Assembly: GCF_932294415.1 (NCBI RefSeq)
Contig: NC_065545.1
Coordinates: forward strand, 43,314,327 to 43,378,326
Length of the DNA: 64,000 nt
Direction of reading: 5' to 3'
Source: Quercus robur
Lineage: Eukaryota; Streptophyta; Magnoliopsida; Fagales; Fagaceae
Translations under genes and position numbers: made by a program
Shown: positions 5,021-31,760 of the stretch, one piece after another
How the letters are laid out: every line of letters begins with the position of its first letter
Numbering within the stretch: position 1 is the stretch's first letter
Notes under the pieces: generated by a model
What the model was told of the DNA's origin: nothing
What the model saw: only the letters and a program-made list of their open reading frames with translations
Database searches by the model: none

Positions 5021-5023
5021 TGA

Positions 5024-5092: not shown

Positions 5093-5099
5093 ACATTTG

Positions 5100-6611: not shown

Positions 6612-6629
6612 CTAAGGCCATATCTATGG

Positions 6630-8100
6630 GCCGAGAACTCCATATCCAAACTAGAAGCTACAATAATGGCAGGTGTGTACCCTATAATCCATAGTCCTCC
6701 ATGGTCTCAGATATCACCCCCAACCACTACCACTAGCTACACTCAATTTGCCCAAGTAAGAACCAGCCATGTTGAGTTTATGCCAATTATACTCAGGGTA
6801 TTTCAATCAATTTTTGACTGAGTGCTTTGTCTTACGCTTGTGAATGACCAACACAAAGGAAATACTCAACTTTAAGTTTAAATCTGTAGCCAAGGCAGCA
6901 ACCCAAATGTATTTTTTTATTTTTTTATTTTTCATATGCTCAACTTCTTAAAACATGTAATATGGTCTGTGTTCCTTCACACATAACATCCCTAGACAAT
7001 CTCCTAACCTTAATTAAGATTGGTTTTCATTGGGATACTATTTATGAAACTTGAAACATTTCCAAATAAAATTTTGTATTTTTGTTAAGGTGTAAGCTTT
7101 CCAAATCCATTTCTCTATGAACAGAGGGACTCAAGTCAGGACAACCACTTGGCATTCTTGGCTAAAAATCACTTTAAGATGATGAGGCCCAGCACAATCT
7201 ATATTAACTAGCAAAAAACATAGGAATGGGAGCAGCTTTTAGAAGGAGCACCAGGTCTATACTCTATAGGGAGGATAAATGAGCAAACATTAAAATTCCT
7301 AAGGCTACCATATATGCCACTTCCTTAACTAGCAGATTTTCCTCTCCAGGAGATAAGAGGTACAGCAATCAAGCTCCTCAATGACCAATCAACAAGCCGT
7401 TCATTAAGTTAGAAATTCAGAAAGTTATTAAATCCAACCATCCATTTAGGCCTGATTTTCTTCCAACAAAAAAGATGTAACTGGTGTTTCTCCTCAGTTT
7501 ATCCCAAAAAAAAAAAGAACTCTTACAAATTTTTATATGGAAGGAATCAAGGATTCTCCCCAGAAGGACCCTTACATCACATAGGCAAGCTGATGATGAT
7601 ATAGGAGCCCGTAAAGGAGATTCTGATGATGATGAAGAAGAAGAAATACCACATTTAATTTTTTTTTTTTTTCAATTCTAACAATCACATAAAAACTAAT
7701 GTCATTGCCAAAACAAAACCATATTCTCAGAACACCAACAAAAAAAACACATAAAAAAAAAACCTAAAAAGATCCGAAAAACCCTAGGTCACGGTGGAAT
7801 TCCAAAATCTAAAATTGGAGAAAGAGAGAGAGACAAAGGAATCTAAGAAGCAAAAACAACAAAGTATTGAGAAGAAACAGAGAGTACCTTCGTCACAATG
7901 GGCTACGAACGGCGACAATGAGCTACGATTGCTTGAGAGACTACCTTCGTGATAGTGGGCAACGAATTTGCTTCAGCACTGGGCTACAGATTTGCTTTAT
8001 GAATGAGTGAGTGAGTTTGAGAGTGAGTTTCAAAGGGTGGTGCGAATGGGTGTACAAGTGAGACAATACTTTGAGATTTTGTAATGAGCTGTTTGAAATT
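6630..8100. other. Copy A, left part: no gene recognised
   Basis: Non-coding in both copies as far as I can see (counterpart about 19300-20790). It includes GAGAGA-rich and GATGAT-rich short runs near 7620-7640 and 7815-7840. Indels in homopolymers separate the two copies. Confidence 0.5.
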
Positions 8101-8124
8101 GTGGAAGTGTTTATATTTTGAACA

Positions 8125-8265
8125 TTTCGAGTTTTATAAACTCGATTTCCACGTGGCTCCATGTGGCAATTTTGTCCAGCTAAGGGTGGCACATAAACAT
8201 GAACTTGAGCTTTAGAAACTCGAGTTCTAATTGAATCTCAAGTTTCTAAAACTCGAGATGCTAGT
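8125..8265. repeat. CTCGAG-rich inverted-repeat segment (copy A)
   Basis: Repeated short palindromes of the type ACTCGAG and AAACTCGAG occur at about 8128-8150 and 8205-8260, with a CCACGTGG-like phrase between. The same CTCGAG core is part of the hairpin block at 2963-3208. The counterpart in copy B is at about 20808-20945. It may be the terminal part of a transposon family common to both places. Confidence 0.55.
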
Positions 8266-8339
8266 TTCACAGATTCTTTCAAAACCGAGCAACTAACGAA
8301 AATGTTAAAATATTATTGTTATTTGGAAAGGGTGTTCTC

Positions 8340-8806
8340 TGTTTGTTTTCACTTAAAAACTTGCCTAGGAAAATCAACATATTAAAAAAAAAGAAAAAAG
8401 AATTGCAATGTCACCAACTTGAAATTCAACCAAATTAAGTTATAGCAAGATGTTAGTCCACACTTTCTATATAAGCCAATATCCCTAGATAAACCCAATG
8501 AAACCGCTTACTATTACAATAAGAACATGTATATATGTTCATGAAGTGCACACTTATTTTACTTTTTATGAAGTTTTGTTAGTTGAATAGGATCTATACA
8601 TTGAAGTTGGAAATGAGTGCATTTGAAAGCAGAATTATTCCCTCCAAAAGCACCAAAAAAGTATTTAAGTTGTCGCTTAATTGGATGGCATTTCATGGTG
8701 TTCCAATAGAGATATCTAGAGTTCAAATCCCCTCACCCCCCATTATAACTATTTACCAACAAAAAAAAAAAAGTAAAAAGGAATGTGCCTTGTGTCATAT
8801 CCAAAA
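8340..8806 (+). repeat. Dispersed repeat R1 (copy A), with SINE-like tail
   Basis: About 465 bp here match copy B (about 21022-21494) and a third, more diverged locus at about 52500-52956. The last 110 bases (8666-8771) look like a tRNA-derived SINE, with an A-box-like cgcttaattgg, a B box gttcaaatccc and then an A-rich tail. In the third copy the A box is better preserved (tagctcaattggt). Since all three loci share the whole 465 bp, the SINE probably sits inside a larger repeat. Confidence 0.65.
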
Positions 8807-9600
8807 TTAATTCAAGATGGGTCCATAATAAGCCCCATGAGATCAGCTTCAAAGCCCATCCATATGGGCAATAAAATCCTAAAGCCATTCGATGGAATCA
8901 ACCAATTGAAGCCGACAAAAGATCAGCAACAGCCCATGAAAGCCCACAGCTGTGACAAATATCAAGCTTAAGTTCAAGTATTTCCCTCCATCACTAGTGA
9001 ACCATGCTTACTGAGGAGAGCAACAAGCCAGATAAGGGAAATAGAAGAGCAATGGGTTGAAGGGCAAAATGGCCGTTTCGTGTCAACTTGGGCCCACCCA
9101 AAATTTGACAAAATGATCTTGGAGCACTAAGACCATTGGGTCTATAGTTTGATGCCATTTGTATGGGTTTCGTCTACTCATAGATTCCAAATCCATAAGT
9201 TTCCTTGTTGAAAATTTGGTTCTTTAGAGTTTAGACTACCCATCTCAATTAATTATAATTTATATGTTATGAAATATTAGTTCATGTCACCATCTAAGGA
9301 ATAATTTAATTTCAATGCTCAGTTATATTTAACAGTTAAGAAATAAGTTTCATTAGAAAGTGACGATTATCTCTAAAATTACTTGTGACGCTTTTTGTAA
9401 ACCCACTTATTTGTTGGAAAGTTTTATACAAAGATTTGATCCTAGATTCAATCTAAAATAGAGAAGATTATATATTTTTTAGTTGCAATATAAGTTGGGA
9501 AAAGTGAGTTATGCTAGGATAGTGTATTTGAGGATCCCAAATCCAAATTCATTTTGTTGGGAACAGTATGATCTATGAATACTCCAAATTGTATTGGGTG
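8802..9600 (+). repeat. Dispersed repeat R2 (copy A), two modules
   Basis: Two modules: 8802 to about 9150, and about 9163-9592. The same pair is found at 36483-37316, but there the first module is inverted and the second is direct. Copy B repeats the copy-A arrangement at about 21495-22290. No coding potential is evident. Confidence 0.75.
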
Positions 9601-10300
9601 GAAATGGCTTTTGAAATGTTCAACTAGATGCTTGAATGTGACTTTGTGTCTTGGAACACAATGTTATCTATCTTCTCTCAACATTACTTTTGGGTTCAGA
9701 GCCTTATTACTTGTGCTGAGATGTGGAGTCAAGGTGTTGGACTGAATTCCATGACCTATGCCATTGAACACAACACAGTTTCATATATATATGATCTTCA
9801 ATGGGGGCATTAATTTGCATGATTGGATTGTTCAAATTGAACTACACTTGATGTTCTAGTTGGTAGTAGTCTTACCACCGCTCCCCCTTGGTGTAGTGGT
9901 CACTCTACAAGTATAAATGCTTATGAGGTGTAGGGGGCAAGGACCGGGGTTCAAGTCTCTAGGAGAGAGCTTCACACATATATATACTTAGATTAGGCTA
10001 GAGTAAAAATTATATCTTGTATAAATAAATAAGAAAAGGTTGTTAGTAGTCTTGTTGATAGCTTAACAGAACACAATGCAGATTTGTAGACTTATTTAAT
10101 CAGTGGACTTGCATATTTTGAGTTAGAGGAATAAGCCTTGGAATGGTTTAATCAAATGACTATTGTCTTGGATGAGTTTTCTCTTGCAACAATTCTTTGG
10201 CGTTAGTTCAGGTGAGAAATATGTTTCAAAATTCAATTGGGAATAGCTATATGGATGTACAATTAAGACTGGAATGGGTTCCTCTGTTGCTGCAAGATAT
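9560..10300 (+). pseudogene. PPR gene remnant interrupted by a SINE (copy A)
   Basis: The plus strand encodes pentatricopeptide-like pieces: DFVSWNTMLSIFSQHY and AEMWSQGVGLNSMTYA (9628-9756), then a stretch ending in LDVLVGSSL at about 9873. After the SINE, the frame resumes with VDSLTEHNAD and later FNQMTIVLDEFSLATI. Several stops and frame changes are present and both ends are missing, so this is a pseudogene fragment. No parent copy is in the window; the intact PPR gene at 53311 is a different protein. The same remnant is in copy B. Confidence 0.75.
9874..10039 (+). mobile_element. tRNA-derived SINE in the PPR pseudogene (copy A)
   Basis: An A box (ggtgtagtggtca near 9891) and a B box (ggttcaagtct near 9949) are followed by an AT-rich 3' tail ending in ataaataaataagaaaagg. 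A 14-bp target-site duplication with one mismatch (ttggtagtagtctt 9860-9873, ttgttagtagtctt 10040-10053) brackets it. The target lies in the PPR-derived reading frame. Confidence 0.88.
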
Positions 10301-10309
10301 TAGTCGCTA

Positions 10310-10947
10310 ACATGCAATATGCAAAGGAAAGTCTTAAATAAATGTAATATATATAATTTCTATTGTACCAAAAATGAAATCAATACATTTTTCATAGAAA
10401 TTCAAAAGGTAAATTTGTGAAAATATTCATTTTTTTTATTAAAATTTATTTATAACATTTGTGCATTATTAAAAGGTATATAAAATTTGAAAATTATGCT
10501 TTCAGTTTTAATAAACTTTCTCTCAAACCTATTTTTTTTTTCACCCTACAATACAAAACATCAAAAAACTTATCCCCAAAATTAATAAAACTACAATTCA
10601 AAATAAAAAGAAATGAAAAAAAAAAAAAAAAACTCTAATAAAAATCAAACTCCTTCTTCCAAATGTATAAAACATATCAAATATGATGTAATGAAGCAAA
10701 ATATCCAATGCATAATCAAACTAAAAAATTTCAATAAAACATTGAAGTCACACAATAGAAAGAGGTGGCTGATCCCAAGTAAAAGTGTTCGTGCCCCCCC
10801 CCCCCCCCCCTCCTCCCCTAAGCAAAATTTCTAGTTCCGCCATTGACAGGATCGATATCTTGATTTTATTAACATGGCACACAATCTACCCAATTTACTT
10901 AGATATGGCACACAATCTACCCAATTTACTTAGATTGGAATTAATAG
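10310..10947. other. AT-rich spacer (copy A), no gene seen
   Basis: Low-complexity A/T stretches, a poly(A) run near 10617 and a C-run at about 10795-10812. A 40-bp phrase (atggcacacaatctacccaatttacttagat) is doubled in tandem at about 10873-10935. Same layout in copy B. Confidence 0.5.
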
Positions 10948-13900
10948 TGTAACGTCTCGTCAGTTTAAAAAAAAAAAAAATGTAAGGTCAAATTTTAAGT
11001 TCCCACATGCCCCACCTAACCCCATTACCCATCAATCTCAACCACTCATTTTCACCCACCTCTCTTCTCTCTTTTGGCTTGCTCTCTCTTTTCTTTCTTT
11101 TCTCTTTACTTAAACACACACACACACTCAATTCCACACTCACCCGCCGGCCTCCACTCCAAACCACACCATCTCACCATCATTTTTCTGGCAAGATCAT
11201 CGGAAAAATACTTAGGAACCCAAAAGCATCTTCATCATTTTATTTGAGGTAAAAATTTCTAATCTTTTTTGTGGGTTTTACACTTTTGCTTGAGGTTATT
11301 TTTATCTAAGCTTTAGTAATGATACTCATGTGATTTATAAGCATTGGAAGTGATATTTATGTGTTTTATGTATGGGTTTTGTATTGGTAGAATTATTTGA
11401 TGAGTGGGTATATATTTTGTGCTATTGATGACTACTTAAGGTTTATGTATGGTGGAAAAATTTAGGGGTTTTAAGTTATAACATGTGATGGTTGGTAAAA
11501 TTAATTTTTCTATTGCCATTGGGTTTATTTGGAGTTAGTTGAGGTTCCAAATTTCTTATCTTGGAGGATATATTGATTTTGCTTTTATGGGTCTCTTAAT
11601 GATGTAGTGTAAATTTTATGGAAACTAGTCATAATGTTGGAGATGATATTAAATGGGTTAACTTTATAATTGGAGTTTATGCCTTGTGAATCATTTTGTT
11701 GAGAAACTATGGGAGTGGAATATATTATTATTGATGAGGTTAGATGCTAGGCTTGCCTAATTAAGTGATTATTTTTGCAATTCCCTAAATTGTGGCTAGA
11801 TGCAATTTCAAGCTCTATACTCATTATGATAGGTTTACTTGATATTGTTTAGGTTCTAGCTAATCTCCTTGGAGCTTGGAGAATTAGGATTTTTAATGGG
11901 ATTTTGAAAAATAACCATGTTGTATAAATGTTGTTTTTGGGTTAGACACGCTTTTGGAAACTACTTATAGAAACTATATTTTTCTAAAAACTATTGTGTC
12001 ATAACCTTAATATGTATATATATATATATATATTTATTTATTTATTTATATATGATTATATATGAAAATGCATCATATTTGGTATTGCGTTTGGGGAAAT
12101 GCATGAATTGTTGATATGGAAAAATGAGCATCTTTTATTTAATCTTTGATAAGGAAATCTTGGATGTTATGGTATATTAGAAAATTTAAAGATGCTTATC
12201 TTGTCTTAGTACTTGGGAAATTGATAGAAAATCCGTTTGACAAGAATGAAGTTGAAACCTCACAAACTTTGTAGAAGTGAGTTTATTTAAGGTTTTTTTT
12301 TTAAAAACTACCTAGATATTAACTATATGTTTCAAAGTAATGTAACATGTGAGTTGTTTTAACACCATGCCATGTGTGATTTCCCGGTGATCACCCGATT
12401 TGGTTTCCGAAATCTTTGTGACAATGGAATCAAATCTAGGTCAGTGCCCTTTCACTTTGGATGACGCGTTCTTCCCTGCTGTCCATGGGGGGAAGAGGTT
12501 CCTTGATTGTGTGTGGGTGAGGCTGCTGTCCATGGGGCCAAGAGACCACATGCAAGAGAGGTCCTATTTGACGCGCTCTCTCTATTGCTCATGGGGGGAG
12601 AGAAAAACCTTGAGGGTATGGGTGAGGCTGCTGTCCATGGGACCAAGAGTCTGCATACCAGAGAGGACAATATCATGCTAGTTGTAAATGGGTGGATCCT
12701 CTGACCGGTTTATGTGGTAGTATGATATATTTATGATAAATTACCGTATGTTAGATTTTATGGCTTTGGAAATTATATGGTTAGTGCTCACAGATTATAG
12801 TATATAGTTTCAAGGTATTTACTTTGAGAAACTTTGTGTTTCATTATTAAATCATTCTTGTCATATTATTATCTATATATATATATAAAACCGAAACTTT
12901 TGAAGCTCTCACAATTTTCCACGTCAGCACAATATTTAAACCGAAACTTTTGAAACTCCCACAATTTTCCACGTCAGCACAATATTTAAATTAAATTAAA
13001 TTTTCCACCTCATCACTGTTTTCTTTTTCCAATGCAAATTAGACTTCTAGCCAAATAAGGATACTCTCCCACCGCCTCTACTCTCTCCTATTTAAAAATT
13101 GGTTGCGTAGAAAACCTAAGTCCCAAAAACTATTCGCGGAGAAGATGATGTTTGAGGACCCTCACCACAAAGTGAATATTGAAACTGACATCTTTTTATA
13201 AAGGTTGGTCAATATCTTATATTTATATGTATGGCCGTTGGTCACCACTATTTTTTTATTATTTTTATTTTAAATTCTTTTTATTTTAGATTTTATGATT
13301 AGATTTGCTATTATCTTCTTTTGCTGCAACACAATTTTCTCCTTAAAACTTATTTTTCTTCAAGAGTTTTTTTGAGGGCGGCTCATGCTTCAGAATTCAC
13401 ATATTCCACTTATGTATTGGACTCCTCTCCTTCTTCGGTCAATGTATCAAGGTTAGGGTTATTTGATTTGTTCAATAAAAATTATAGATTAGTTGCTTTT
13501 TCTTATAAGTTTGTCAATTGTTGTTTTGTTTATTTAATTGCTAGGCCTGAATCTTTTAATTAAATCTTCAAATTTTTTTAACCTTTTAATATTTTTTTTG
13601 TTTATTATATTTCTCCATTGTGTAGTCACATAATTTTTGTTTTGTTTTAATAAATTCTTGGCTCAAAATCTTCTAATTGTTTGGTTTACATATGAATTTT
13701 TAAGTTCATTTTTTGCAATACATTTAATTGTCTGGCCAATTTCAATAGTAGAAAAGCTATAATCATAGATTCCCTTCTTTCTATTGTATTTCTCTATTGC
13801 ATAATTATATATATATATATATATATATTGTTTTATTTCATAGCGCATTTCTCTATTGCTTTTGTTTTTCTTATTTTTACTTTCATAGCGTATGTACATG

Positions 13901-14902
13901 TTGTGTATCTGGGTACTTAGGCAAAATCTATAAAGACTAAAGATGTTTTTTTTTTTTTTTTTTTTTTTTTATAATGAATCCTGTGTTTTTCATGACTTTA
14001 GTGAGTCATATTCTTAATGATCGAAATGGTTTTGTTTGACGTGGATTTTGTTCATATTGGTTTCAAAGTTTATTTCTTGGCTTATATTATAGATTGTAAT
14101 ATATTTATTCATCAAACTGTTTAGTTGAGTTTGTTTTCGAAATTGTTTTCAGTGTTGGACATTTTCTTGAAGCATGTTGGTATCATATATTAAAATATTG
14201 TTAAGTTGATAATAATAATAATAATAATAATATAGTTTAATAAATGTCTGAAACGTATAGCTGTTAACAAATGTTTTAGCTATATGATTTTATTTTACAA
14301 ATTCAATTTTGGTGTTGTAGTAAAATAAACAAAGATTAAATTATATATTGTACTCAATACATTTCCTGTGCATCGCACGGGTTAGCGACTAGTTATTATT
14401 ATTGAAGATAAAACTTGCATTTCCCCCACCCCCATTAAATATGCTACTTACTGGGCTCTAGCTCATCCCATTATTTTATAAACTTTTCAGAGTAGGCAAC
14501 AATCTTTTAAGACAGCTTTTTGGTGGCTAATAGTAGTTAGACTAACTTCTGATGGAGGTTGAACTTTTGTAATGGATATATTAGATGGTGTACATCTTAG
14601 ACTAGGCTTGACTCATTCTTTTGTATATTATAGTGGTTATGACTGTATTTCCTTTGATGGGACAAGCTGTTGATATGTAATTATTTATTCAGACCTCTAT
14701 TCTTTTGTGGCCAATGGTCCTTGTAATTAATGCTTAGAGCTCTGACTTACTCTGAGAGTATATTCTATGGGATTATTATGATAATTCTTGATGTTGGTAC
14801 TTGATAGGATTTATATGGATTAAATTGTCAAAAAGGAAAATTTTACAGGTACTTGAGACATCTTTCTCATGCTTTGGACCCTTTGGGGTTTGGGGCGTGA
14901 CA
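10948..14902. mobile_element. Solo LTR with nested Helitron (copy A)
   Basis: The element begins TGTAACGTC and ends GCGTGACA, within the TG...CA rule for LTRs, and is flanked by the 5-bp target duplication AATAG (10943-10947 and 14903-14907). No internal retrotransposon region, second LTR, or gag/pol reading frame is visible, so this is a solo LTR fossil of an LTR retrotransposon of undetermined superfamily. Without the nested Helitron it is about 2.43 kb. It predates the segmental duplication, since copy B has the same LTR at the same site with the same flanks. Confidence 0.85.
12872..14392 (+). mobile_element. Non-autonomous Helitron, 1,521 bp
   Basis: The 5' end TCTATATATATATATA follows a host A. 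The 3' end is CTAG followed by a host T, with a short hairpin just before it (CCTGTGC-atc-GCACGGG, 14365-14381). The paralogous position in copy B (around 25480) lacks the insertion with no base gained or lost, and no target duplication is present, both diagnostic of Helitrons. The 5' region holds a 50-bp tandem duplication (12891-12940, 12941-12990). An (AAT)n run lies near 14210. No Rep/helicase coding was seen, so movement would have needed a helper. The short open frames inside show no recognisable domain. Confidence 0.92.
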
Positions 14903-15155
14903 AATAGGCTTTGTTCATTATTTCCTCAAGTTTTTAAATTTAAAACACAACACCATTTTATCATTTATTACAAAACCAGGGTCACCAAAAGGAAAAGGTG
15001 CTATAAGAATAGCACCACAAAAACATATTACATTGAGTAGACAACAAACATTATCTAGTACGATAAATTATCAAATACACCTCTCAAACTCCTGAAATAA
15101 AATGGAAAAACTAGTAATGGAACATATGCATGGGTTTATTTATAAGGGAAAATTC

Positions 15156-18065
15156 TTACCCAACTAAATTTTTTTTTTGATGTCTCCTCGACTTCACCCT
15201 TCCTGTCAGATGGCCAATTGCAAAAGACTTTATAAACCAACCACTCTTCCGTGTGATTATAATTTGTCCAACAAAAACACCAACTATAAATCCAGATCCA
15301 TATCCCATCGCAACTACCTTCCAGCCAAACTCAAATGAAAACTTTGAGCCTTGGTTTGCTTCAAAATTTGAAGGTGGTGTTGGTGGGTCATCCGAATTGG
15401 CACATCTTTTGGACAATGGGCTTCCACACAATTCAACATTTCCATCAAATGAACTGTTTTGAAATGTGAGAAATTGTTTCCCTTGTGGTATAGGTCCAGT
15501 AAGATTATTATGAGACACATTCAAGAAAGTAAGGAAGGTGAGCTCCACTAGTTGTGGAGGAATCTCTCTAACTAGCATATTTTGAGAAAGGTCTAGTGAT
15601 TCTAGGTTTGTTAAGGTTGCCAAGGATGAGGGGATAAAACCAGTAAGAATATTGTTGGAAAGGTTAAGCATGTGAAGCGCTTTTAGATTCCCTAAATTTT
15701 TTGGAATTTCTCCTTCAAACTTGTTGCCTGATAGATCAATGGCCATGAAGAAATCTTGGATTTTCAAATATTTTGTCTTTATACCTTTGTTTGTCAATGC
15801 CATTGAGTAGGCATATGACGTCATTGACCAACCATTGCTTACATGTTTTTGCAGCTGACCATTTGCTTGCATATACGTTAAGTGACTTGCATCAAAGCTT
15901 TGCATGGCTTTCCAAATTTGGAAATATTCAGATGGCAACTTACCACTAATACTATTGTTCGAGACATCAATTACTTGTAATTTTGGAAAATTTTGAATTG
16001 TATCAGGTTTTCCAATAAAACCATGGATTCCATTTGATTGCAAAATGAGAACCCTTAGCTCTGGAAGAATGCCCAACCAAGAGGGGAAAAAATCAATTAT
16101 ATGATTGTTTCCAATATCAAAAAATTCCAGCATTGTACAATTAGCCAATGACCTCGGTAAAGACCCCTCAAAACGATTTTGACTCAATTGGATCATCTCC
16201 AATTTGCATCCTTCTATGAATATTTGAGGAATGCTACCATGAAAGTTGTTGTATTGGAGATTAAGAACGGAAAGGTTTCTCAAGTCTCCTAAACAATGGG
16301 GAAGGAAGCCACTCAAATTGTTGTATGAAACATCAAGATAAGAAAGAGAACTTAGTTCACAAATCATTTGAGAGATGTCTCCAGTCAACATATTGTTAGA
16401 GACAGAATAGGCTAAGATGGACGGAGGTGGAATTGGCAGTGCCCCTTGAAGCTTGTTGTTTAGAAGGTTCAAAATTTGTAGACTACGCCAAGGGAAAGTA
16501 TTTGGGGTTTGATCAAACCCTGTGAGTGAGTTTCCTGACATGCTTAAAAACATGAGAGTGTTTATACTCATGTTAGAGATCCATTTTGGTATATGGCCAT
16601 GAATGTTGTTTTGAGAAAGTTCCAAAACTTCCAACTGATCTTGGTTTCGAAGGAATTCTGGGAAGTCACTTAAGTTGCAAGAACCCAGTCCTAATACCTT
16701 AAATTTTTGAAAGGTAGAATTGGTACTAGGATCAATAACCAATGAAAGATTGTTATAAGATAAATCGAGATTGGAGAGGTTATTGAGCTTTCGAAACAAG
16801 TCAAATTCTATTGTGCCACTCAAGTTATTTGAATACAAATCTAAAATATGAAGATTCAGAAGGCTGGAAATAGATGTTGGAATTGGACCACACAATTTAT
16901 TGTATGGAAACCATAGAGTATTTAGTTGGGTGAGGTTTGCTAGCCACGATGGGATAGAACCGGTTAATTCATTCCGACCAAGTACTAATGATGTAAGTTT
17001 AGTCAGGTTTCCAATAGAAAACGGGATATCACCATATAAACTAATATTTGCTAGAAGTAACATGGTGAGTTTGGTTTGCTTACCAACCCAAGAGAGAGTC
17101 CCACGGTTGAAACTGTTTTCTGAAAGATCTAGATACGAGAGCTTTGTCAGGTTAGCAAATGACGATGGTATTGGTCCAGAGAAATTGCAACTTCTAACAT
17201 CCAATTCATATAAGGACCGGAGGTTACCCATTGAATCTGGTAGCTTTCCAGAGAAACTTGCGCCCGCAAGTCTCAAAACTTCAAGGGGGCTACTTCTATT
17301 AAACTCTGGTACACGACCAGTGAGTTTTGGATTGGAACGCACATTGAGAGACTTGAGATTTGGTAGCTGAAAAATTCCAGTTGGAAACTCACCATGCAAA
17401 CCGCAATCTCTAAGAGAAATAGTTGTTAAAGAAGATAAGTTTGCCAAGATACTGGGTACAGTGGACGATATGTCCACCTCACTCAGAATTAGTTCTTCTA
17501 AGTTTGTTAACTTCTCAGCTATACTTTTGAGACCAGGCTTGTGGAGCTTCAATGGATTCAGAGCGAGGTTTAGGGAAACCAACTTAGAGAGTTGTAAAAT
17601 TTCTGATGGGATCTTACCTGAAAATCCAGAATAAAAGAGGTCAAGGTAAGTAAGCTTTGAAAGCCGTCTTACTCCAACAGGGATTTCAGAGTGATTGAAG
17701 TTGTTGATGGAGAGATTAAGCTTTTGAAGGTGAACAAGCTGGAAGAGGCTGCTACTGGAGTTGATAGAACCATAAAGAGAACTGTTACTGAGGTCAAGGC
17801 TGATCACATGACCCGTGTTTTCATCACATTGAATACCATCCCACGTGCAGCAATCACTACTTTGTGCCATCCACGACGAAATCTTTGAATAAGCGGAAGT
17901 GGATTGATTGATGATAAGGCTTTCTTTGAATTGCAACAAGGCAAAGCTCTCATCATCATGACATAGTGGCTGCACCGAAGAAAAAGAGCCAGCAGAAACA
18001 AGAGAAAGCAGAGACAATAGAAAGAGAAACTGCGTGAACATCACGAAAGAAAGTGATAAACTCAT
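15156..18065 (-). CDS. LRR receptor-like protein (RLP), intact copy A
   Basis: Cell-surface receptor-like protein of the Cf-9/RLP type: an extracellular LRR receptor without a kinase, which in this family usually works with SOBIR1/BAK1-type kinases in immunity or development. The single-exon ORF of 969 codons starts with a signal peptide (MSLSLSFVMFTQFLFLLSLL, to about residue 25). An LRRNT_2 cap follows (LCHDDESFALLQFKES, CCTWDGIQC), then about 25-28 LRRs of the LxxLxLSxNxLxGxIP type. A non-LRR island (about residues 715-785, around YMQANGQ and TNKGIKTKYLKIQ) precedes the last four repeats. Then come an LCG cap, an acidic/proline stretch (DDPPTPPS), a single TM helix (about 917-938) with GxxxG spacing, and a basic 31-residue tail. 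The ligand is unknown. Compared with copy B it has Arg where B and the LRR consensus have Gly (LVREIPP). Confidence 0.93.
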   Translation of the reverse strand: MSLSLSFVMFTQFLFLLSLLSLVSAGSFSSVQPLCHDDESFALLQFKESLIINQSTSAYSKISSWMAQSSDCCTWDGIQCDENTGHVISLDLSNSSLYGSINSSSSLFQLVHLQKLNLSINNFNHSEIPVGVRRLSKLTYLDLFYSGFSGKIPSEILQLSKLVSLNLALNPLKLHKPGLKSIAEKLTNLEELILSEVDISSTVPSILANLSSLTTISLRDCGLHGEFPTGIFQLPNLKSLNVRSNPKLTGRVPEFNRSSPLEVLRLAGASFSGKLPDSMGNLRSLYELDVRSCNFSGPIPSSFANLTKLSYLDLSENSFNRGTLSWVGKQTKLTMLLLANISLYGDIPFSIGNLTKLTSLVLGRNELTGSIPSWLANLTQLNTLWFPYNKLCGPIPTSISSLLNLHILDLYSNNLSGTIEFDLFRKLNNLSNLDLSYNNLSLVIDPSTNSTFQKFKVLGLGSCNLSDFPEFLRNQDQLEVLELSQNNIHGHIPKWISNMSINTLMFLSMSGNSLTGFDQTPNTFPWRSLQILNLLNNKLQGALPIPPPSILAYSVSNNMLTGDISQMICELSSLSYLDVSYNNLSGFLPHCLGDLRNLSVLNLQYNNFHGSIPQIFIEGCKLEMIQLSQNRFEGSLPRSLANCTMLEFFDIGNNHIIDFFPSWLGILPELRVLILQSNGIHGFIGKPDTIQNFPKLQVIDVSNNSISGKLPSEYFQIWKAMQSFDASHLTYMQANGQLQKHVSNGWSMTSYAYSMALTNKGIKTKYLKIQDFFMAIDLSGNKFEGEIPKNLGNLKALHMLNLSNNILTGFIPSSLATLTNLESLDLSQNMLVREIPPQLVELTFLTFLNVSHNNLTGPIPQGKQFLTFQNSSFDGNVELCGSPLSKRCANSDDPPTPPSNFEANQGSKFSFEFGWKVVAMGYGSGFIVGVFVGQIIITRKSGWFIKSFAIGHLTGRVKSRRHQKKNLVG

Positions 18066-18099
18066 AATGTTCTATTGGAGTTTGTATTGTTGTAACGCT

Positions 18100-18120
18100 G
18101 GAGAAGCAAATAAATAGAAA
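18100..18120 (-). promoter_or_regulatory. Possible TATA-like element for RLP copy A
   Basis: On the minus strand a CTATTTATTTG stretch lies about 45 bases upstream of the start codon, in a pyrimidine-rich leader. The spacing is short for a TATA box plus 5' UTR, so this is only a candidate. The identical bases are present before copy B (about 29190-29210). Confidence 0.3.
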
Positions 18121-18181
18121 AGAGAATAGGGATTTTCTAAACCAATCTCTACGTCGCCCTCACACACTATTCATTTCTTAT

Positions 18182-18925: not shown

Positions 18926-19282
18926 GAGTGAGTTTGGTTCAGCTTTTTGTAAAAGTGCATAATGAAAAAATTGAGTTTTCAAAAAGTGCATAATAAAAAA
19001 GTGCATTTTCAAAAAGCTGATTGTTTAGTAAAATCTGTTAAAAAGTGCTTTTTAAAAAAGCTGAGTGTTTGGCTAGCACTTATAAAAGTGACAGTTTGAG
19101 GGATAAATTATCAAAAATGACAATGTATATATAAGGGAGTTTATTTCATACTTTTTTTTTTTTTTTTTTTTTTTATGTGAGTTTGGTTCATACTTAAAAA
19201 TCAACTACTTCATCATACTTAAATCAATTTTTCTCTTTCTAAAAAAATCATTTTTTTCTCACCAATATTAGCTAATAATAAC
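18926..19282. repeat. A/T-rich repeat at the right end of copy A
   Basis: It starts gagtgagtttggttcagctttttg and contains several 'aaaagtgcat' and 'aaaaagctgagtgttt' phrases typical of the ends of hAT-like MITEs, then a poly(T) run near 19150. The tandem-duplication junction lies at its right edge. The counterpart is at 30016-30376. Whether it is a complete MITE is unclear. Confidence 0.4.
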
Positions 19283-19299
19283 CTAAGGCCATATCTATG

Positions 19300-20800: not shown

Positions 20801-20807
20801 GAAGATT

Positions 20808-20945
20808 TCGAGTTTTATAAACTCAATTTCCACGTGGCTCCATGTGGCAATTTTGTCCAGCTAAGGGTGGCACAAAAACATGAACTTGAGCTTTAGAAAC
20901 TCGAGTTCTAATTGAATCTCGAGTTTCTAAAACTCGAGATGCTTT
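20808..20945. repeat. CTCGAG-rich inverted-repeat segment (copy B)
   Basis: Counterpart of 8125-8265. The palindromic CTCGAG phrases at about 20895-20940 are retained; one outer copy has changed (actcaattt instead of actcgattt). Confidence 0.55.
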
Positions 20946-21021
20946 TTTCACAAATTCTTTCAAAACCGGGCAACTAACGAAAATGTTAAAATATTATCGT
21001 TATTTGGAAAGGGTGTTCTCT

Positions 21022-22290
21022 ATTTGTTTTCACTTAAAAACTTGCCTAGGAAAATCAACATATTAAAAAAAAAAAAAAGAATTTCAATGTCAACAACTTG
21101 AAATTCAACCAAATTAAGTTACAGCAAGATGTTAGTCCACACTTTCTATATAAGCCAATATCCCTAGATAAACCCAATGAACCTGCTTACTATTACAATA
21201 AGAACATGTATATATGTTCATGAAGTGCACACTTATTTTACTTTTTATGTAGTTTTGTTAGTTGAATAGGATCTATACATTGAAGTTGGAAATGAGTGCA
21301 TTTGAAAGCAGAATTATTCCCTCCAAAAGCACCAAAAAAGTATTTAAGTTGTAGCTTAATTGGATTGCATTTCATGGTGTTCCAATAGAGATATCTAGAG
21401 TTCAAATCCCCTCACCCCCCATTATAACTATTTACCAAAAAAAAAAAAAAAAAAAAAAAAAGTAAAAAGGAATGTGCCTTGTGTCATATCCAAAATTAAT
21501 TCAAGATGGGTCCATAATAAGCCCCATGAGATCAGCTTCAAAGCCCATCCATATGGGCAATAAAATCCTAAAGCCATTCGATGGAATCAACCAATTGAAG
21601 CCGACAAAAGATCAGCAACAGCCCATGAAAGCCCACAGCTGTGACAAATATCAAGCTTAAGTTCAAGTATTTCCCTCCATCACTAGTGAACCATGCTTAC
21701 TGAGGAGAGCAACAAGCCAGATAAGGGAAATAGAAGAGCAATGGGTTAAAGGGCAAAATGGTCGTTTCGTGTCAACTTGGGCCCACCTAAAATTTGACAA
21801 AATGATCTTGGAGCACTAAGACCATTGGGTCTATAGTTTGATGCCATTTGTATGGGTTTCATCTACTCATAGATTCCAAATCCATAAGTTTCCTCGTTGA
21901 AAATTTGGTTCTTTAGAGTTTAGACTACCCATCTCAATTAATTATAATTTATATGTTATGAAATATTAGTTCATGTCACCATCTAAGGAATAATTTAATT
22001 TCAATGCTCAGTTATCTTTAACAGTTAAGAAATAAGTTTTATTAGAAAGTGACGATTATCTCTAAAATTACTTGTGACGCTTTTTGTAAACCCACTTATT
22101 TGTTGGAAAGTTTTATACAAAGATTTGATCCTAGATTCAATCTAAAATAGAGAAGATTATATATTTTTTAGTTGCAATATAAGTTGGGAAAAGTGAGTTA
22201 TGCTAGGATAGTGTATTTGAGGATCCCAAATCCAAATTCATTTTGTTGGGAACAGTATGATCTATGAATACTCCAAATTGTATTGGGTGG
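21022..22290 (+). repeat. Dispersed repeats R1 and R2 (copy B)
   Basis: R1 (about 21022-21494) and R2 (about 21495-22290) lie in the same order and orientation as in copy A. The poly(A) tail of the SINE-like part of R1 (about 21437-21461) is longer here than in A. Confidence 0.7.
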
Positions 22291-22990
22291 AAATGGCTTT
22301 TGAAATGTTCAACTAGATGCTTGAATGTGACTCTGTGTCTTGGAACACAATGTTATCTATCTTCTCTCAACATTACTTTTGGGTTCAGAGCCTTATTACT
22401 TGTGCTGAGATGTGGAGTCAAGGTGTTGGACTGAATTCCATGGCCTATGCCATTGAACACAATACAGTTTCGTATATATATGATCTTCAATGGGGGCATT
22501 AATTTGCATGATTGGATTGTTCAAATTGAACTACACTTGATGTTCTAGTTGGTAGTAGTCTTACCACCGCTCCTCCTTGGTGCAGTGATCACTCTACAAG
22601 TATAAATACTTATGGGGTGTAGGGGCAAGGACCGGGATTCAAGTCTCTAGGAGAGAGTTTCACACATATATACACTTAGATTAGGCTAGAGTAGAAATTA
22701 TATCTTGTATAAATAAATAAAAAAAGGTTGTTAGTAGTCTTGTTGATAGCTTAACAGAACACAATGCAGATTTGTAGACTTATTTAATCAGTGGACTTGC
22801 ATATTTTGAGTTAGAGGAATAAGCCTTAGAATGGTTTAATCAAATGACTATTGTCTTGGATGAGTTTTCTCTTGCAACAATTCTTTGGCGTTAGTTCAGG
22901 TGAGAAATATGTTTCAAAATTCAATTGGGAATAGCTATATGGATGTACAATTAAGACTGGAATGGGTTCCTCTGTTGCTGTAAGATATTA
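22250..22990 (+). pseudogene. PPR gene remnant interrupted by a SINE (copy B)
   Basis: Counterpart of 9560-10300, with the same stops and frame changes and the same SINE position, so the decay predates the duplication. The open piece at 22317-22502 differs from A by two residues (DSVSWNTM, LNSMAYA). Confidence 0.75.
22563..22727 (+). mobile_element. tRNA-derived SINE in the PPR pseudogene (copy B)
   Basis: Counterpart of 9874-10039, flanked by the same 14-bp imperfect target duplication (22549-22562, 22728-22741). The internal promoter boxes have a few substitutions relative to A (ggtgcagtgatca, ggattcaagtct). Confidence 0.87.
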
Positions 22991-22999
22991 GTCGCTAAC

Positions 23000-23633
23000 A
23001 TGCAATATGCAAAGGAAAGTCTTAAATAAATGTAATATATATAATTTCTATTGTACCAAAAATGAAATCAATACATTTTCATAGAAATTCAAAAGGTAAA
23101 TTTGTGAAAATATTCATTTTTTTTATTAAAATTTATTTATAACATTTGTGCATTATTAAAAGGTATATAAAATTTGAAAATTATGCTTTCAGTTTTAATA
23201 AACTTTCTCTCAAACCTTTTTTTTTTTCACCCTACAATACAAAACATCAAAAAAACGTATCCCCAAAATTAATAAAACTACAATTCAAAATAAAAAGAAA
23301 TGAAAAAAAAAAAAAAAAAACTCTAATAAAAATCAAACTCCTTCTTCCAAATGAATAAAACATATCAAATATGATGTAATGAAGCAAAATATCCAATGCA
23401 TAATCAAACTAAAAAATTTTAATAAAACATTGAAGTCACGCAATAGAAAGAGGTAGCTGATCCCAAGTAAAAGTGTTCATGCCCCCCCCCCCCCCCTCCT
23501 CCCCTAAGCAAAATTTCTAGTTCCGTCATTGACAGGATCAATATCTTGATTTTATTAACATGGCACACAATCTACCCAATTCACTTAGATATGGCACACA
23601 ATCTACCCAATTTACTTAGATTGGAATTAATAG
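23000..23633. other. AT-rich spacer (copy B), no gene seen
   Basis: Counterpart of 10310-10947, including the poly(A) run, a C-run near 23482-23497 and the doubled 'atggcacacaatctaccca' phrase. Confidence 0.5.
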
Positions 23634-25988
23634 TGTAACGTCCCGTCAGTTTTTTTAAAAAAAAAATGTAAGGTCAGATTTTAAGTTCCCACATGCCCCA
23701 CCTAACCCCACTACCCATCATTCTCAACCACTCATTTTCACCCACCTCTCTTCTCTCTTTTGGCTTGCTCTCTCTTTTCTTTCTTTTCTCTTTACTTAAA
23801 CACACACACACACACTCAATTCCACACTCATCCGCCGGCCTCCACTCCAAACCACACCATCTCACCATCATTTTTCTGGCAAGATCATTGGAAAAATACT
23901 TAGGAACCCAAAAGCATCTTCATCATTTTATTTGAGGTAAAAATTTCTAATCTTTTTTGTGGGTTTTACACTTTTGCTTGAGGTTATTTTTATCTAAGCT
24001 TTAATAATGATACCCATGTGATTTATAAGCATTGGAAGTGATATTTCTGTGTTTTATGTATGGGTTTTGTATTGGTAGAATTATTTGATGAGTGGGTATA
24101 TATTTTGTGCTATTGATGACTACTTAAGGTTTATGTATGGTGGAAAAATTTAGGGGTTTTAAGTTATAACATGTGATGGTTGGTGAATTTAATTTTTCTA
24201 TTGCCATTGGGTTTATTTGGAGTTAGTTGAGGTTCCAAATTTCTTATCTTGGAGGATATATTGATTTTTCTTTCATGGGTCTCTTAATGATGTAGTGTAA
24301 ATTTTATGGAAACTAATGATAATGTTGGAGATGATATTAAATGGGTTAACTTTATAATTGGAATTTATGCCTTGTGAATCATTTTGTTAAGAAACTATGG
24401 AAGTGGAATATATTATTATTGATGAGGTTAGATGCTAGGCTTGCCTAATTAAGTGATTATTTGGCAATTCCTTAAATTGTGGCTAGATGCAATTTCAAGC
24501 TCTATACTCATTATGATAGGTTTACTTGATATTGTTTAGGTTCTAGCTAATCTCCCTGGAGCTTAGAGAATTAGGATTTTGCGGTTGCGAGGTAAGTAGC
24601 TTTTTAATGGGATTTTGAAAAATAACCATGTTGTATAAATGTTGTTTTTGGGTTAGACACGCTTTTGGAAACTACTTATGGAAACTATATTTTCCTAAAA
24701 ATTATTGTGTCGTAACCTTAATATATATATATATATATATATATTTATTTATATATGATTATATATGAAAATGCATCATATTTGGTATTGCGTTTGGGGA
24801 AATGCATGAATTGTTGATATGGAAAAATGAGCATCTTTTATTTAATCTTTGATGAGGAAATCTTGGATGTTATGGTATATTAGAAAATTTAAAGATGCTT
24901 ATCTTGTCTTAGTACTTGGGAAATTGATAGAAAATCCGTTTGACAAGAATGAAGTTGAAACCTTACAAACTTTGTAGAAGTGAGTTTATTTAAGGTTTTT
25001 TTTTTTTTTTTTTTTTAAAACTACCTGGATATTAACTATATGTTTCAAAGTAATGTAACCTGTGAGTTGTTTTAACACCATGCCATGTGTGATTTCTCAG
25101 TGATCACCCGGTTTGGTTTCCGTAATCTTTGTGATAATGGAATCAAATCTAGGTTAGTGCCCTTTAACTTTGGATGACGCGTTCTTCCCTGATGTCCATG
25201 TGGGGAAGAGGTTCCTTGCTTGTGTGTGGGTGAGGTTGCTGTCCATGGGGCCAAGAGTCTGCATACCAGAGAGGACAATATCACGCCAGTTGTAAATGGG
25301 TGGATCCTTTAACCGGTTTATGTGGTAGTATGATATATTTATGATAAATTACCGTATGTTAGATTTTATGGCTTTGGAAATTATATGGTTAGTGCTCACA
25401 GATTATAGTATATAGTTTCAAGGTATTTACTTTGAGAAACTTTTTGTTTCATTATTAAATCATTCTTGTCATATTATTATTATTATTATTGAAGATGAAA
25501 CTTGCATTTCCCCCACCCCCATTAAATATGCTACTTATTGGGCTCTATCTCATCCCATTATTTTATAAATTTTTCAGAGTAGGCAACAATCTTTTGAGAC
25601 AGCTTTTTGGTGGCTAATAGTAGTTAGACTAACTACTGATGGAGGTTGAACTTTTGTAATGGATATATTAGATGGTGTACATCTTAGAGTAGGCTTGACT
25701 CATTCTTTTGTATATTATAGTGGTTATGACTGTATTTCCTCTGATAGGACAAGTTGTTGATATGTAATTATTTATTCAGACCTCTATTCTTTTGTGACCA
25801 ATGGTCCTTGTAATTAATACTTAGAGCTCTAACTTACTCTGAGAGTATATTCTATGGGATTATTATGATAATTCTTGATGTTGGTACTTGATAGGATTTA
25901 TATGGATTGAATTGTCAAAAAGGAAAATTTTACAGGTACTTGAGACGTCTTTCTCATGCTTTGGACCCTTTGGGGTTGGGGCGTGACA
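23634..25988. mobile_element. Solo LTR (copy B)
   Basis: The same solo LTR as in copy A, with TGTAACGTC and GCGTGACA ends and flanking AATAG (23629-23633 and 25989-25993). About 2.36 kb, without the Helitron. Fossil of an LTR retrotransposon, present before the segmental duplication; no coding region remains. Confidence 0.85.
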
Positions 25989-26241
25989 AATAGGCTTTGT
26001 TCATTATTTCCTCAAGTTTTTAAATTTAAAACACAACACCATTTTATCATTTATTACAAAACCAGGGTCACCAAAAGGAAAAGGTGCTGTAAGAATAGCA
26101 CCACAAAAACATATTACATTGAGTAGACAACAAACATTATCTAGTACGATAAATTATCAAATACACCTCTCAAACTCCTGAAATAAAATGGAAAAACTAG
26201 TAATGGAACATATGCGTGGGTTTATTTATAAGGGAAAATTC

Positions 26242-29155
26242 TTACCCAACTAAATTTTTTTTTTGATGTCTCCTCCACTTCACCCTTCCTGTCAGATGGC
26301 CAATTGCAAAAGACTTTATAAACCAACCACTCTTCCTTGTGATTATAATTTGTCCAACAAAAACACCAACTATAAATCCAGATCCATATCCCATCGCAAC
26401 TACCTTCCAGCCAAACTCAAATGAAAACTTTGAGCCTTGGTTTGCTTCAAAATTTGAAGGTGGTGTTGGTGGGTCATCCGAATTGGCACATCTTTTGGAC
26501 AATGGGCTTCCACACAATTCAACATTTCCATCAAATGAACTGTTTTGAAATGTGAGAAATTGTTTCCCTTGTGGTATAGGTCCAGTAAGATTATTATGAG
26601 ACACATTCAAGAAAGCAAGGAAGGTGAGCTCCACTAGTTGTGGAGGAATCTCTCCAACTAGCATATTTTGAGAAAGGTCTAGTGATTCTAGGTTTGTTAA
26701 GGTTGCCAAGGATGAGGGGATAAAACCAGTAAGAATATTGTTGGAAAGGTTAAGCATGTGAAGCGCTTTTAGATTCCCTAAATTTTTTGGAATTTCTCCT
26801 TCAAACTTGTTGCCTGATAGATCAATGGCCATGAAGAAATCTTGGATTTTCAAATATTTTGTCTTTATACCTTTGTTTGTCAATGCCATTGAGTAGGCAT
26901 ATGACGTCATTGACCAACCATTGCTTACATGTTTTTGCAGCTGACCATTTGCTTGCATATACGTTAAGTGACTTGCATCAAAGCTTTGCATGGCTTTCCA
27001 AATTTGGAAATATTCAGATGGCAACTTACCACTAATACTATTGTTCGAGACATCAATTACTTGTAATTTTGGAAATTTTTGAATTGTATCAGGTTTTCCA
27101 ATAAAACCATGGATTCCATTTGATTGCAAAATGAGAACCCTTAGCTCTGGAAGAATGCCCAACCAAGAGGGGAAAAAATCAATTATATGATTGTTTCCAA
27201 TATCAAAAAATTCCAGCATTGTACAATTAGCCAATGACCTCGGTAAAGACCCCTCAAAACGATTTTGACTCAATTGGATCATCTCCAATTTGCATCCTTC
27301 TATGAATATTTGAGGAATGCTACCATGAAAGTTGTTGTATTGGAGATTAAGAACGGAAAGGTTTCTCAAGTCTCCTAAACAATGGGGAAGGAAGCCACTC
27401 AAATTGTTGTATGAAACATCAAGATAAGAAAGAGAACTTAGTTCACAAATCATTTGAGAGATGTCTCCAGTCAACATATTGTTAGAGACAGAATAGGCTA
27501 AGATGGACGGAGGTGGAATTGGCAGTGCCCCTTGAAGCTTGTTGTTTAGAAGGTTCAAAATTTGTAGACTACGCCAAGGGAAAGTATTTGGGGTTTGATC
27601 AAACCCTGTGAGTGAGTTTCCTGACATGCTTAAAAACATGAGAGTGTTTATACTCATGTTAGAGATCCATTTTGGTATATGGCCATGAATGTTGTTTTGA
27701 GAAAGTTCCAAAACTTCCAACTGATCTTGGTTTCGAAGGAATTCTGGGAAGTCACTTAAGTTGCAAGAACCCAGTCCTAATACCTTAAATTTTTGAAAGG
27801 TGGAATTGGTACTAGCTAGGATCAATAACCAATGAAAGATTGTTATAAGATAAATCGAGATTGGAGAGGTTATTGAGCTTTCGAAACAAGTCAAATTCTA
27901 TTGTGCCACTCAAGTTATTTGAATACAAATCTAAAATATGAAGATTCAAAAGGCTGGAAATAGATGTTGGAATTGGACCACACAATTTATTGTATGGAAA
28001 CCATAGAGTATTTAGTTGGGTGAGGTTTGCTAGCCACGATGGGATAGGACCGGTTAATTCATTCCGACCAAGTACTAATGATGTAAGTTTAGTCAGGTTT
28101 CCAATAGAAAACGGGATATCACCATATAAACTAATATTTGCTAGAAGTAACATGGTGAGTTTGGTTTGCTTACCAACCCAAGAGAGAGTCCCACGGTTGA
28201 AAATGTTTTCTGAAAGATTTAGATACGAGAGCTTTGTCAGGTTAGCAAATGACGATGGTATTGGTCCAGAGAAATTGCAACTACTAACATCCAATTCATA
28301 TAAGGACTGGAGGTTACCCATTGAATCTGGTAGCTTTCCAGAGAAACTTGCGCCCGCAAGTCTCAAAACTTCAAGGGGGCTACTTCTATTAAACTCTGGT
28401 ACACGACCAGTGAGTTTTGGATTGGAACGCACATTGAGAGACTTGAGATTTGGTAGCTGAAAAATTCCAGTTGGAAACTCACCATGCAAACCACAATCTC
28501 TAAGAGAAATAGTTGTTAAAGAAGATAAGTTTGCCAAGATACTGGGTACAGTGGACGATATGTCCACCTCACTCAGAATTAGTTCTTCTAAGTTTGTTAA
28601 CTTCTCAGCTATACTTTTGAGACCAGGCTTGTGGAGCTTCAATGGATTCAGAGCGAGGTTTAGGGAAACCAACTTAGAGAGTTGTAAAATTTCTGATGGG
28701 ATCTTACCTGAAAATCCAGAATAAAAGAGGTCAAGGTAAGTAAGCTTTGAAAGCCGTCTTACTCCAACAGGGATTTCAGAGTGATTGAAGTTGTTGATGG
28801 AGAGATTAAGCTTTTGAAGGTGAACAAGCTGGAAGAGGCTGCTACTGGAGTTGATAGAACCATAAAGAGAACTGTTACTGAGGTCAAGGCTGATCACATG
28901 ACCCGTGTTTTCATCACATTGAATACCATCCCACGTGCAGCAATCACTACTTTGTGCCATCCACGACGAAATCTTTGAATAAGCGGAAGTGGATTGATTG
29001 ATGATAAGGCTTTCTTTGAATTGCAACAAGGCAAAGCTCTCATCATCATGACATAGTGGCTGCACCGAAGAAAAAGAGCCAGCAGAAACAAGAGAAAGCA
29101 GAGACAATAGAAAGAGAAACTGCGTGAACATCACGAAAGAAAGTGATAAACTCAT
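26242..29155 (-). pseudogene. LRR receptor-like protein, disrupted copy B
   Basis: Near-identical to the gene at 15156-18065: I count nine amino-acid differences. The upstream 447 codons (29155 down to 27812) keep the signal peptide, cap and roughly the first half of the LRRs, then hit a TAG created by a 4-bp tandem duplication of CTAG (27812-27819; copy A has a single CTAG). The rest of the protein, including the island, final LRRs, TM helix and tail, stays open in the shifted frame to 26242. As written, the gene could only give a soluble N-terminal LRR fragment. It is a young pseudogene or a truncated paralogue; a sequencing or assembly error at this 4-bp site is the main alternative. Confidence 0.88.
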
Positions 29156-29271
29156 AATGTTCTATTGGAGTTTGTATTGTTGTAACGCTGGAGAAGCAAA
29201 TAAATAGAAAAGAGAATAGGGATTTTCTAAACCAATCTCTACGTCGCCCTCACACACTATTCATTTCTTAT

Positions 29272-30015
29272 CCAAATGCTCCATTCAGTCCTCCTTAACA
29301 TTTTCCATAAGAAATTGCCATCCATGTTAAACGATAAATGTGTCATTCTCAATGATGAAAGTCTTGGTCCGGTAGACTACAATCACTTTTCCGCGTGAGT
29401 GTACTGTAGACAGTAGACTCCATCATTCTCAATGACAGCAGTCTTCTGTGGAATTTGTCTTAGTACGATAGAAACCAAGACAGAGACTGTTGAGGAGAAA
29501 ATCTGGCATCTATCTATGTAATGAAGAAATAGGAATTGTATTATTCTTTCATAAGTTGTTTGGTGTGAATGAAACGATAGCTGAGAGCTGGCAAAATGTG
29601 GGCTTGGGCGACAATACTGGAGTAAATGGACCACCTAAATTATTTCTTATCCAAATGCTCCATTCAGTCCTTAACATTTTCCATAAGAAATTGCCATCCA
29701 TATTAAACGATAATTGTGTCATTCTCAATGATGAAAGTCTTGGTCGGGTAGACTACATTCACATTTCCGCGTGAGTGTACTGTAGACAGTAGACTCCATC
29801 ATTCTCAATGACAGCAGTCTTCTGTGGAATTTGTCTTAGTACGATAGAAACCAAGATAGAGACTGTTGAGGAGAAAATCTGGCATCTATCTATGTAATGA
29901 AGAAATAGGAATTGTATTATTCTTTCATAAGTTGTTTGGTGTGAATGAAACGATAGCTGAGAGCTGAGAGCTGAGAGCTGGCAAAATGTGGGCTTGGGCG
30001 ACAATACTGGAGTAA
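29272..30015. repeat. ~380-bp tandem repeat upstream of RLP copy B
   Basis: Counterpart of 18182-18925: units start at 29272 and 29651 and end at 29624 and 30015. The two-unit structure is shared, so the internal duplication predates the large one. An 'gctgagagctgagagctg' stretch near 29958 shows small repeat-number variation against copy A. Confidence 0.9.
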
Positions 30016-30317
30016 GAGTGAGTTTGGTTCAGCTTTTTGTAAAAGTGCATAATGAAAAAATTGAGTTTTCAAAAAGTGCATAATAAAAAAGTGCATTTTC
30101 AAAAAGCTGAGTGTTTAGTAAAAACTGTAAAAAAATGCTTTTTAAAAAAACTGAGTGTTTGGCTAGCACTTATAAAAGTGACAGTTTAAGGGATAAATTA
30201 TCAAAAAGGACAATGTATATATAAGAGGGTTTATTTCATACTTTTTTTTTTTTTTTTTTTTTTTTTATGTGAGTTTGGTTCATACTTAAAAATCAACTAC
30301 TTCATCATACTTAAATC

Positions 30318-30700
30318 AATTTTTCTCTTTCTAAAAAAATTATTTTTTTCTCACAAATATTAGCTAATAATAACCTACCACTTAAGATTTATTGTGAAAA
30401 TATTGTGATAAAAATTGATACTAATTTCAGTTTTAACGTGCTATTAAAATTATGTTTTTCTCTTCTTAAAAAATTATTTTTTTCTCACCAATATTAGCTA
30501 ATAATAACCTACCACTTAAGATTTATTGTAAAAATATTGTGAAAATATTATGATAAAAATTGATACTAATTTTAATTTTAACATATTATTAAAATTATTT
30601 TTTTCTCTTTCTAAAAAAATTATTTTTTTCTCACCAATATTAGCTAATAATAACCGACCCCTTAAAATTTATTGTGAAAAAATTGTGATAATATTTCATT
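30318..30700. repeat. Three-copy ~140-bp minisatellite
   Basis: Units starting near 30320, 30457 and 30600 share 'ctctttctaaaaaaattatttttttctcac', 'aatattagctaataataacc' and 'cacttaagatttattgtgaaaatattgtgataaa' phrases. The right breakpoint of the segmental duplication falls inside the first unit, directly after taataataaccta. Confidence 0.8.
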
Positions 30701-31740: not shown

Positions 31741-31760
31741 TTCTCTTTTTTTTTTTTGTT

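Follow-up and report, generated by a model that had tools for sequence, protein, structure and literature searches.

A tandem duplication of about 11 kb in Quercus robur with one open and one frameshifted receptor-like protein gene

The window, that is the whole stretch of 64,000 nucleotides of Quercus robur that was analysed, contains two copies of one segment, A (12,671 bp) and B (11,095 bp), which lie head to tail without a gap as found by self-BLAST and global alignment. Each copy carries a receptor-like protein gene, and the coordinates of the features are collected in Table 1. The left flank is filled by a MULE-type transposon, recognised by its transposase domains, with transposase frames at 1117-2994 and an apparent right end at 6439. 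Between these frames and the right end lies an XS-domain open frame (3628-4344, minus strand; Pfam XS 2.1e-32). The XS domain is found in plant RNA-directed DNA methylation factors, and the frame is perhaps a transposon-captured gene. For two short frames at the left end no Pfam family was found; a retrotransposon RNase H remnant was considered as a presumed candidate. Inside the duplicated unit, the blocks 8340-9597 (also 21023-22286) are 78-91% alike to 52501-52956 and 36480-37316 and have many further matches in the genome; to judge from these matches, they are dispersed repeats. Elsewhere in the window are an uninterrupted frame of 768 codons for a DYW-type pentatricopeptide repeat protein (53314-55617, minus strand), an array of period 82 at 57701-58345 and a second, pyrimidine-rich array of period 145 with 5.6 copies (31746-32550), which follows shortly after the complete transposon on its right side.

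Table 1. Features of the duplicated segment, with positions given in the window.
Feature	Position	Strand	Remarks
Copy A	6612..19282	+	Left end continuous with the old flank
Copy B	19283..30377	+	Right end runs on through the remainder of the transposon into the right flank
CTA, 3 bp common to left end, junction and right end	19283..19285	+	
Two diverged tandem units of ~100 bp in A	12462..12666	+	78% alike; one fused unit in B
Helitron-like element, 1,521 bp, A only	12872..14392	+	Perfect empty site in B
Low-divergence segment (A coordinates), gene and flanks	14861..19020		17 differences in 4,159 sites; putative conversion tract
Receptor-like protein gene, A (P0001)	15156..18065	-	Single open frame, 969 codons/aa
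~375-bp tandem repeat upstream of receptor gene, A	18173..18925 (18173-18535, 18552-18925)	+	Units 93.6% alike
Truncated left part (357 bp) of dispersed transposon, end of A	18926..19282	+	TAA at 18923-18925
Receptor-like gene, B	26242..29161	-	Frameshifted into two overlapping open stretches, 551 + 449 aa
4-bp tandem repeat CTAGCTAG in B (single CTAG in A)	27812..27819		Shifts the frame near residue 447
~375-bp tandem repeat upstream of receptor gene, B	29263-29625 and 29642-30015		Units 93.9% alike
Complete dispersed DNA transposon, end of B	30016..31689	+	TAA at 30013-30015 and 31690-31692

In the global alignment, A and B differed by 173 substitutions over 11,022 aligned sites (1.57%), of which 121 were transitions and 52 transversions. 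Two large gaps were present, one of 105 bp and one of 1,521 bp, both with the bases in A only, and all remaining gaps were 24 bp or shorter. The copies are adjacent, have the same orientation and have their outer ends in the ancestral context, as in a direct tandem segmental duplication. The tandem duplication described in the initial annotation was thereby borne out, A directly adjoining B, and at the level of the sequence the feature is confirmed as genuine.

The larger of the two gaps corresponds to an element that starts with TC, ends with CTAG and sits between A and T. Helitrons have a 5′ TC and a 3′ CTRR, insert between A and T without a target duplication and carry a hairpin near the 3′ end. 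A 7-bp hairpin near the 3′ end of the element (z -1.9, with 11 of 200 shuffles folding as well) is by itself modest evidence. A genome search with 12873-14392 as the query, which is one base short, scored 40 of 2,488 candidates, and 32 of the 37 matches listed elsewhere to the 3′ part ended at the last base of the element. With this common last base in a dispersed family, 12872-14392 has the features of a non-autonomous Helitron. Since Helitrons do not as a rule excise cleanly, its insertion into A is most likely younger than the duplication, which puts the founding unit, on the alignment, at about 11.1 kb. The 12.7 kb given initially as the size of the unit does not hold, as A contains 1,521 + 105 bp that are missing from B, and with the Helitron-like insert present in A only it was ruled out as the founding size. 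The 105-bp gap is probably the deletion of one unit in B, because A has two diverged tandem units that are fused to one in B. The ~375-bp tandem repeat upstream of the receptor gene is common to A and B and is therefore older than the large duplication. In relatives on the contigs C38 (L023), C5 (L031) and C40 (L059), both ~375-bp units match one same place, and these relatives seem to carry a single unit.

The protein encoded in A contains LRRNT_2 (Pfam, 5.2e-10) and leucine-rich repeats (LRR_1, 8.7e-49, and others), two of the eight listed families being below the curated cut-off, and no kinase family was found among these eight Pfam hits. By hydropathy, a hydrophobic segment peaks near residue 919 and is followed by a short tail. 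The LRR cap and array without a kinase, the predicted transmembrane segment and the short tail are those of an LRR receptor-like protein, and its solved relatives include receptor kinases and others, 7drb among them. The duplication had been described as carrying a whole receptor-like protein gene with its upstream region; this is true of A, with its open frame and upstream DNA, but not of B, in which the gene is frameshifted. At residue 833, A has Arg and B has Gly. Among 22 relatives (25 loci less the three that represent A and B), Gly was found in 20, Arg in one and Glu in one, and the soundness of A is therefore not assured either. Coding changes special to A and to B numbered 9/3, 8/2, 9/2 and 3/3 with four outgroups (p 0.15 for 9/3). 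So far, the duplication has left a receptor gene whose frame is open beside a pseudogene, and no sound second gene was gained.

A search for relatives of the receptor gene, in which 47 of 2,691 candidates were scored, gave at least 91 matches. Among the matches listed, none but A and B lies on their contig, C41, and the nearest others are found on C38 (69-86% alike in protein by piece and about 80-92% in DNA); the C38 relatives at 50.27-50.40 Mb carry stops. Because of this distribution, the locus does not at present look like a growing cluster, and membership in a local receptor cluster was rejected. The view that the duplication exemplifies a classic way in which such clusters grow finds no footing here, with the B gene frameshifted and no other relative on the chromosome among the matches listed.

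At the left breakpoint, three loci on C35 match across position 6612, from 6517 and 6526 to 6870 (about 75-77%) and from 6439 to 6688 (67%), so the sequence there was continuous before the duplication. A 98% match on C4 to the MULE-type transposon of the left flank ends at 6439, 172 bp from the breakpoint. On C35, the left end of the unit is matched twice, by a set of matches at C35:41309849-41310245 and by another, with the order unchanged, 12.8 kb away at C35:41322666-41323068, which suggests an independent tandem duplication of similar size.

The right end of B runs on into a complete dispersed DNA transposon of 1.67 kb, of which the end of A holds the truncated left part. The terminal inverted repeats of the complete element are imperfect (14 of 18 positions by eye), and an internal ~145-bp tandem array lies within 30320-30695. 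In the genome search for this transposon 40 of 920 candidates were scored, which makes the copy numbers lower bounds. Two of the eight relatives fetched match end to end in one piece, a third in two pieces and the others partially; TAA or TTA is found left of six of these eight other copies, and the repeated ~145-bp unit is carried by other copies too. PIF/Harbinger elements are characterised by a 3-bp TAA/TTA target duplication and terminal inverted repeats, and the element is putatively PIF/Harbinger-like. The right breakpoint had been placed inside a unit of a ~140-bp minisatellite. It does fall in the first unit of the ~145-bp array, but this array is internal to the transposon and does not stand alone. 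Since A begins in C35-homologous sequence and B continues into a complete transposon, the outer ends are ancestral and the inner junction alone is new, which is what a tandem duplication would lead one to expect.

The left flank reads ...GCACATA/CTAAGG, the junction ...ATAATAAC/CTAAGG and the right end ...ATAATAACCTA/CCACTT, the slash marking the breakpoint. Of the proposal that the copies were joined through 3-bp microhomology, the CTA common to the three ends remains, but three or more shared bases occur in 6.9% of random position pairs in the window and in 7.7% of pairs near the breakpoints. The microhomology is near chance and is therefore no proof of template switching or end joining, with which the junction is compatible without demonstrating either. 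In the 500 bp on each side of both breakpoints no alignable homology was found at the ends. The best match there, 21 bp at 90% to a T-run, lies more than 100 bp from both breakpoints, 18 of 60 bases around the breakpoints agree in register, and in the 30 self-matches that the window gave at E 1e-10 there was none between 1-6611 and the transposon. The absence of a long repeat flanking the unit was thus upheld by the search around both breakpoints, and with it the argument against unequal recombination as the founding event.

Unequal homologous recombination between flanking repeats that were lost later would find partners in the genome, the right end being in a high-copy transposon. It is nevertheless very improbable here: a copy of this transposon is absent from 1-6611, the breakpoints have no mutual homology, and the C35 relatives are continuous across the left breakpoint, so that seemingly nothing was deleted there. 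A product of homologous unequal recombination has a long repeat at both ends of the unit, and none was found at these ends; homologous unequal crossing over was accordingly ruled out. Slighter still is the probability that the duplication was made by alternative transposition of the kind described for reversed Ac ends in maize. Transposons do lie near both ends, and tandem direct duplications from 8,157 bp upwards are produced by this process according to the maize study (PMC3744419). By the same account, element ends and target-site duplications should be left at the junction (PMC3744419), whereas the junction here is 357 bp inside one element, with its other side 172 bp off another, and the signature is absent. 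Alternative transposition was ruled out as a candidate, the junction having no element end.

The possibility was also considered that A and B are two alleles of one locus which were placed end to end in the assembly. A ends inside a dispersed transposon and the start site of B lies 172 bp from another, where contigs may end; assemblies also go wrong at dispersed repeats, one of which contains the right breakpoint while another is close to the left. The divergence between the copies is patchy, as between haplotypes, and in the account of the Chinese cork oak genome this oak is called highly heterozygous (PMC10652414). That account gives two haplotypes of 789 and 768 Mb with 12 chromosomes for Quercus variabilis (PMC10652414). 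Against an artefact, the window is without N and the join is gapless, and the contig, whose telomere-bearing end is 233 kb from the right end of the window, finishes in 1,500 bp of TTTAGGG telomere repeat (213 units counted). Chromosome-sized sequences dominate the 42 contigs of the 786-Mb assembly, with eleven of 43.6 to 98.2 Mb and a twelfth, C6, in which matches reach 40 Mb. These sequences make it likely that the assembly was built from long reads, which would extend across the junction; tandem copies in a 12-kb pair that differ by 2% are as a rule told apart in this way. With the telomere-ended contig and the window without N, an artefact is improbable.

The divergence between A and B is unevenly distributed along the unit. 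It amounts to 0.41% in 14861-19020 (17/4,159) and 2.27% outside this segment (156/6,863), a contrast that was not equalled in any of 200 random placements. The word recent, taken as a single uniform age for the duplication, does not fit these two values. For transversions alone the difference persists (7/4,159 inside and 45/6,863 outside the tract, p 1.5e-4), the excess divergence outside being strongest for transitions. The upstream noncoding stretch 18066-19020 contains two differences in 955 sites against the 156/6,863 outside the tract (p 4.5e-7), and the next 262 sites beyond its end at 19020 contain 11. In the coding region there are four synonymous differences (647 sites) and nine nonsynonymous codon differences, giving a Ks of about 0.006 and a Ka of about 0.004. 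A and B are identical over a run of 1,156 aligned bases, 494 bp of which are noncoding DNA; within this noncoding part, at 18066-18490, the C38 relative differs at 29 of 366 sites and the C40 relative at 52 of 402. A later exchange of the gene-conversion type between A and B would likely have made the gene and its upstream region near identical, and the same pattern would be seen in a mosaic that unequal crossing over had left from an array once longer than now.

Outgroups were used as a yardstick, the ratios being those of A-B to A-outgroup differences. With the C38 paralogue at 50.39 Mb the ratios were 9:85 (10303-10904), 2:20 (14861-15155), 13:239 in the coding region and 0:29 upstream (18066-18490). 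Comparison of 9:85 with the 15:288 of 14861-18490 gave p 0.13, and with the upstream part alone p 0.11. The C38 paralogue at 50.27 Mb gave 13:234 in the coding region and 2:6 at 10303-10904 (63 sites), and that at 48.65 Mb gave 13:555 in the coding region. With the C40 relative, 8:211 was found in the coding region and 0:52 upstream against 10:34 at 9860-10060 (165 sites), the last two differing with p 0.0002. The C35 relatives gave 4:59 and 7:81 at 6612-7600, outside the tract, and 10:48 at 9860-10060. Normalised in this way, a clear contrast comes from the C40 relative only and the divergence step is weaker with the paralogues; the left end of the unit is not clearly faster than the gene, while the middle is.

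These ratios bear on a different account of the low-divergence segment, in which constraint and a lower mutation rate kept the gene and its flanks alike without conversion, and which is otherwise compatible with the history preferred here. It is favoured by the p of 0.13 with the C38 paralogue, by the 4:59 and 7:81 of the left end, which come near the 13:239 of the gene, and by the prevalence of transitions in the excess outside the tract. Synonymous and upstream noncoding differences and transversions are, however, low as well, and the long identical run extends over noncoding DNA in which the C38 and C40 relatives differ. As a full replacement for exchange this account is somewhat unlikely, although some of the divergence step could be due to constraint or mutation rate.

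The history of the locus may be depicted as follows. Very probably, a direct tandem duplication of about 11.1 kb arose between sites without useful homology and was followed by an insertion, a frameshift, a conversion-type exchange and a loss. One of the joined sites would be old sequence with diverged C35 relatives, 172 bp right of the MULE-type transposon, and the other would lie 357 bp into the PIF/Harbinger-like transposon. They could have been joined equally well by template switching during replication or by end joining of sister chromatids. Both the Helitron-like insertion in A and the 4-bp repeat in B would have come after the duplication, a later gene-conversion-type exchange probably brought the gene and upstream region to 0.4% while the rest stayed at 2.3%, and B would have lost the 105-bp unit. 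At assumed substitution rates of 6.5e-9 to 1.5e-9, as used for dating, the 2.27% divergence corresponds to 1.75 to 7.6 million years, and the age of the duplication is probably a few million years. A further reading, rather doubtful, is that the broken B is more than a dead copy. Having traded sequence with A over the receptor gene and its promoter, and perhaps still doing so, the frameshifted B would be a sequence reservoir for, or a threat to, receptor A, which is otherwise alone on its chromosome arm, near the chromosome end.

Duplication, pseudogenisation, insertion of a mobile element and partial re-copying are all ordinary in plant genomes, and the knowledge of gene clusters is unchanged by this duplication. 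It shows plainly how a tandem copy of a receptor gene can originate where no repeats flank the unit and can later decay. For a duplication of this kind, overall identity or the raw length of the copies would give a wrong age and a wrong size.

Several known systems may be compared with the locus. In oak, 35.6% of the gene repertoire was reported as recent local duplicates, and an orthogroup of LRR-receptor-like proteins was among the nine most expanded (PMC6086335). That study of tandem duplicates also set out to exclude alleles and artefacts (PMC6086335). The present duplication resembles the oak tandemly duplicated genes in being a local duplication of cell-surface receptor genes; it differs from the survey in being a two-copy unit with one pseudogene, described at base resolution (PMC6086335). 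By this analogy it may be one more case of the oak type of local receptor duplication. The duplications at reversed Ac ends in maize are likewise direct, tandem, of kb size and close to DNA transposons, but the junction here has neither an element end nor a target-site duplication (PMC3744419). The protein of A resembles plant LRR receptor-like proteins without a kinase in its LRRNT_2, its leucine-rich repeats, its second hydrophobic segment and its short tail, and its solved relative 7drb is named a membrane-localized LRR receptor-like protein. Unlike most of its relatives, A has Arg at residue 833, where 20 of 22 have Gly.
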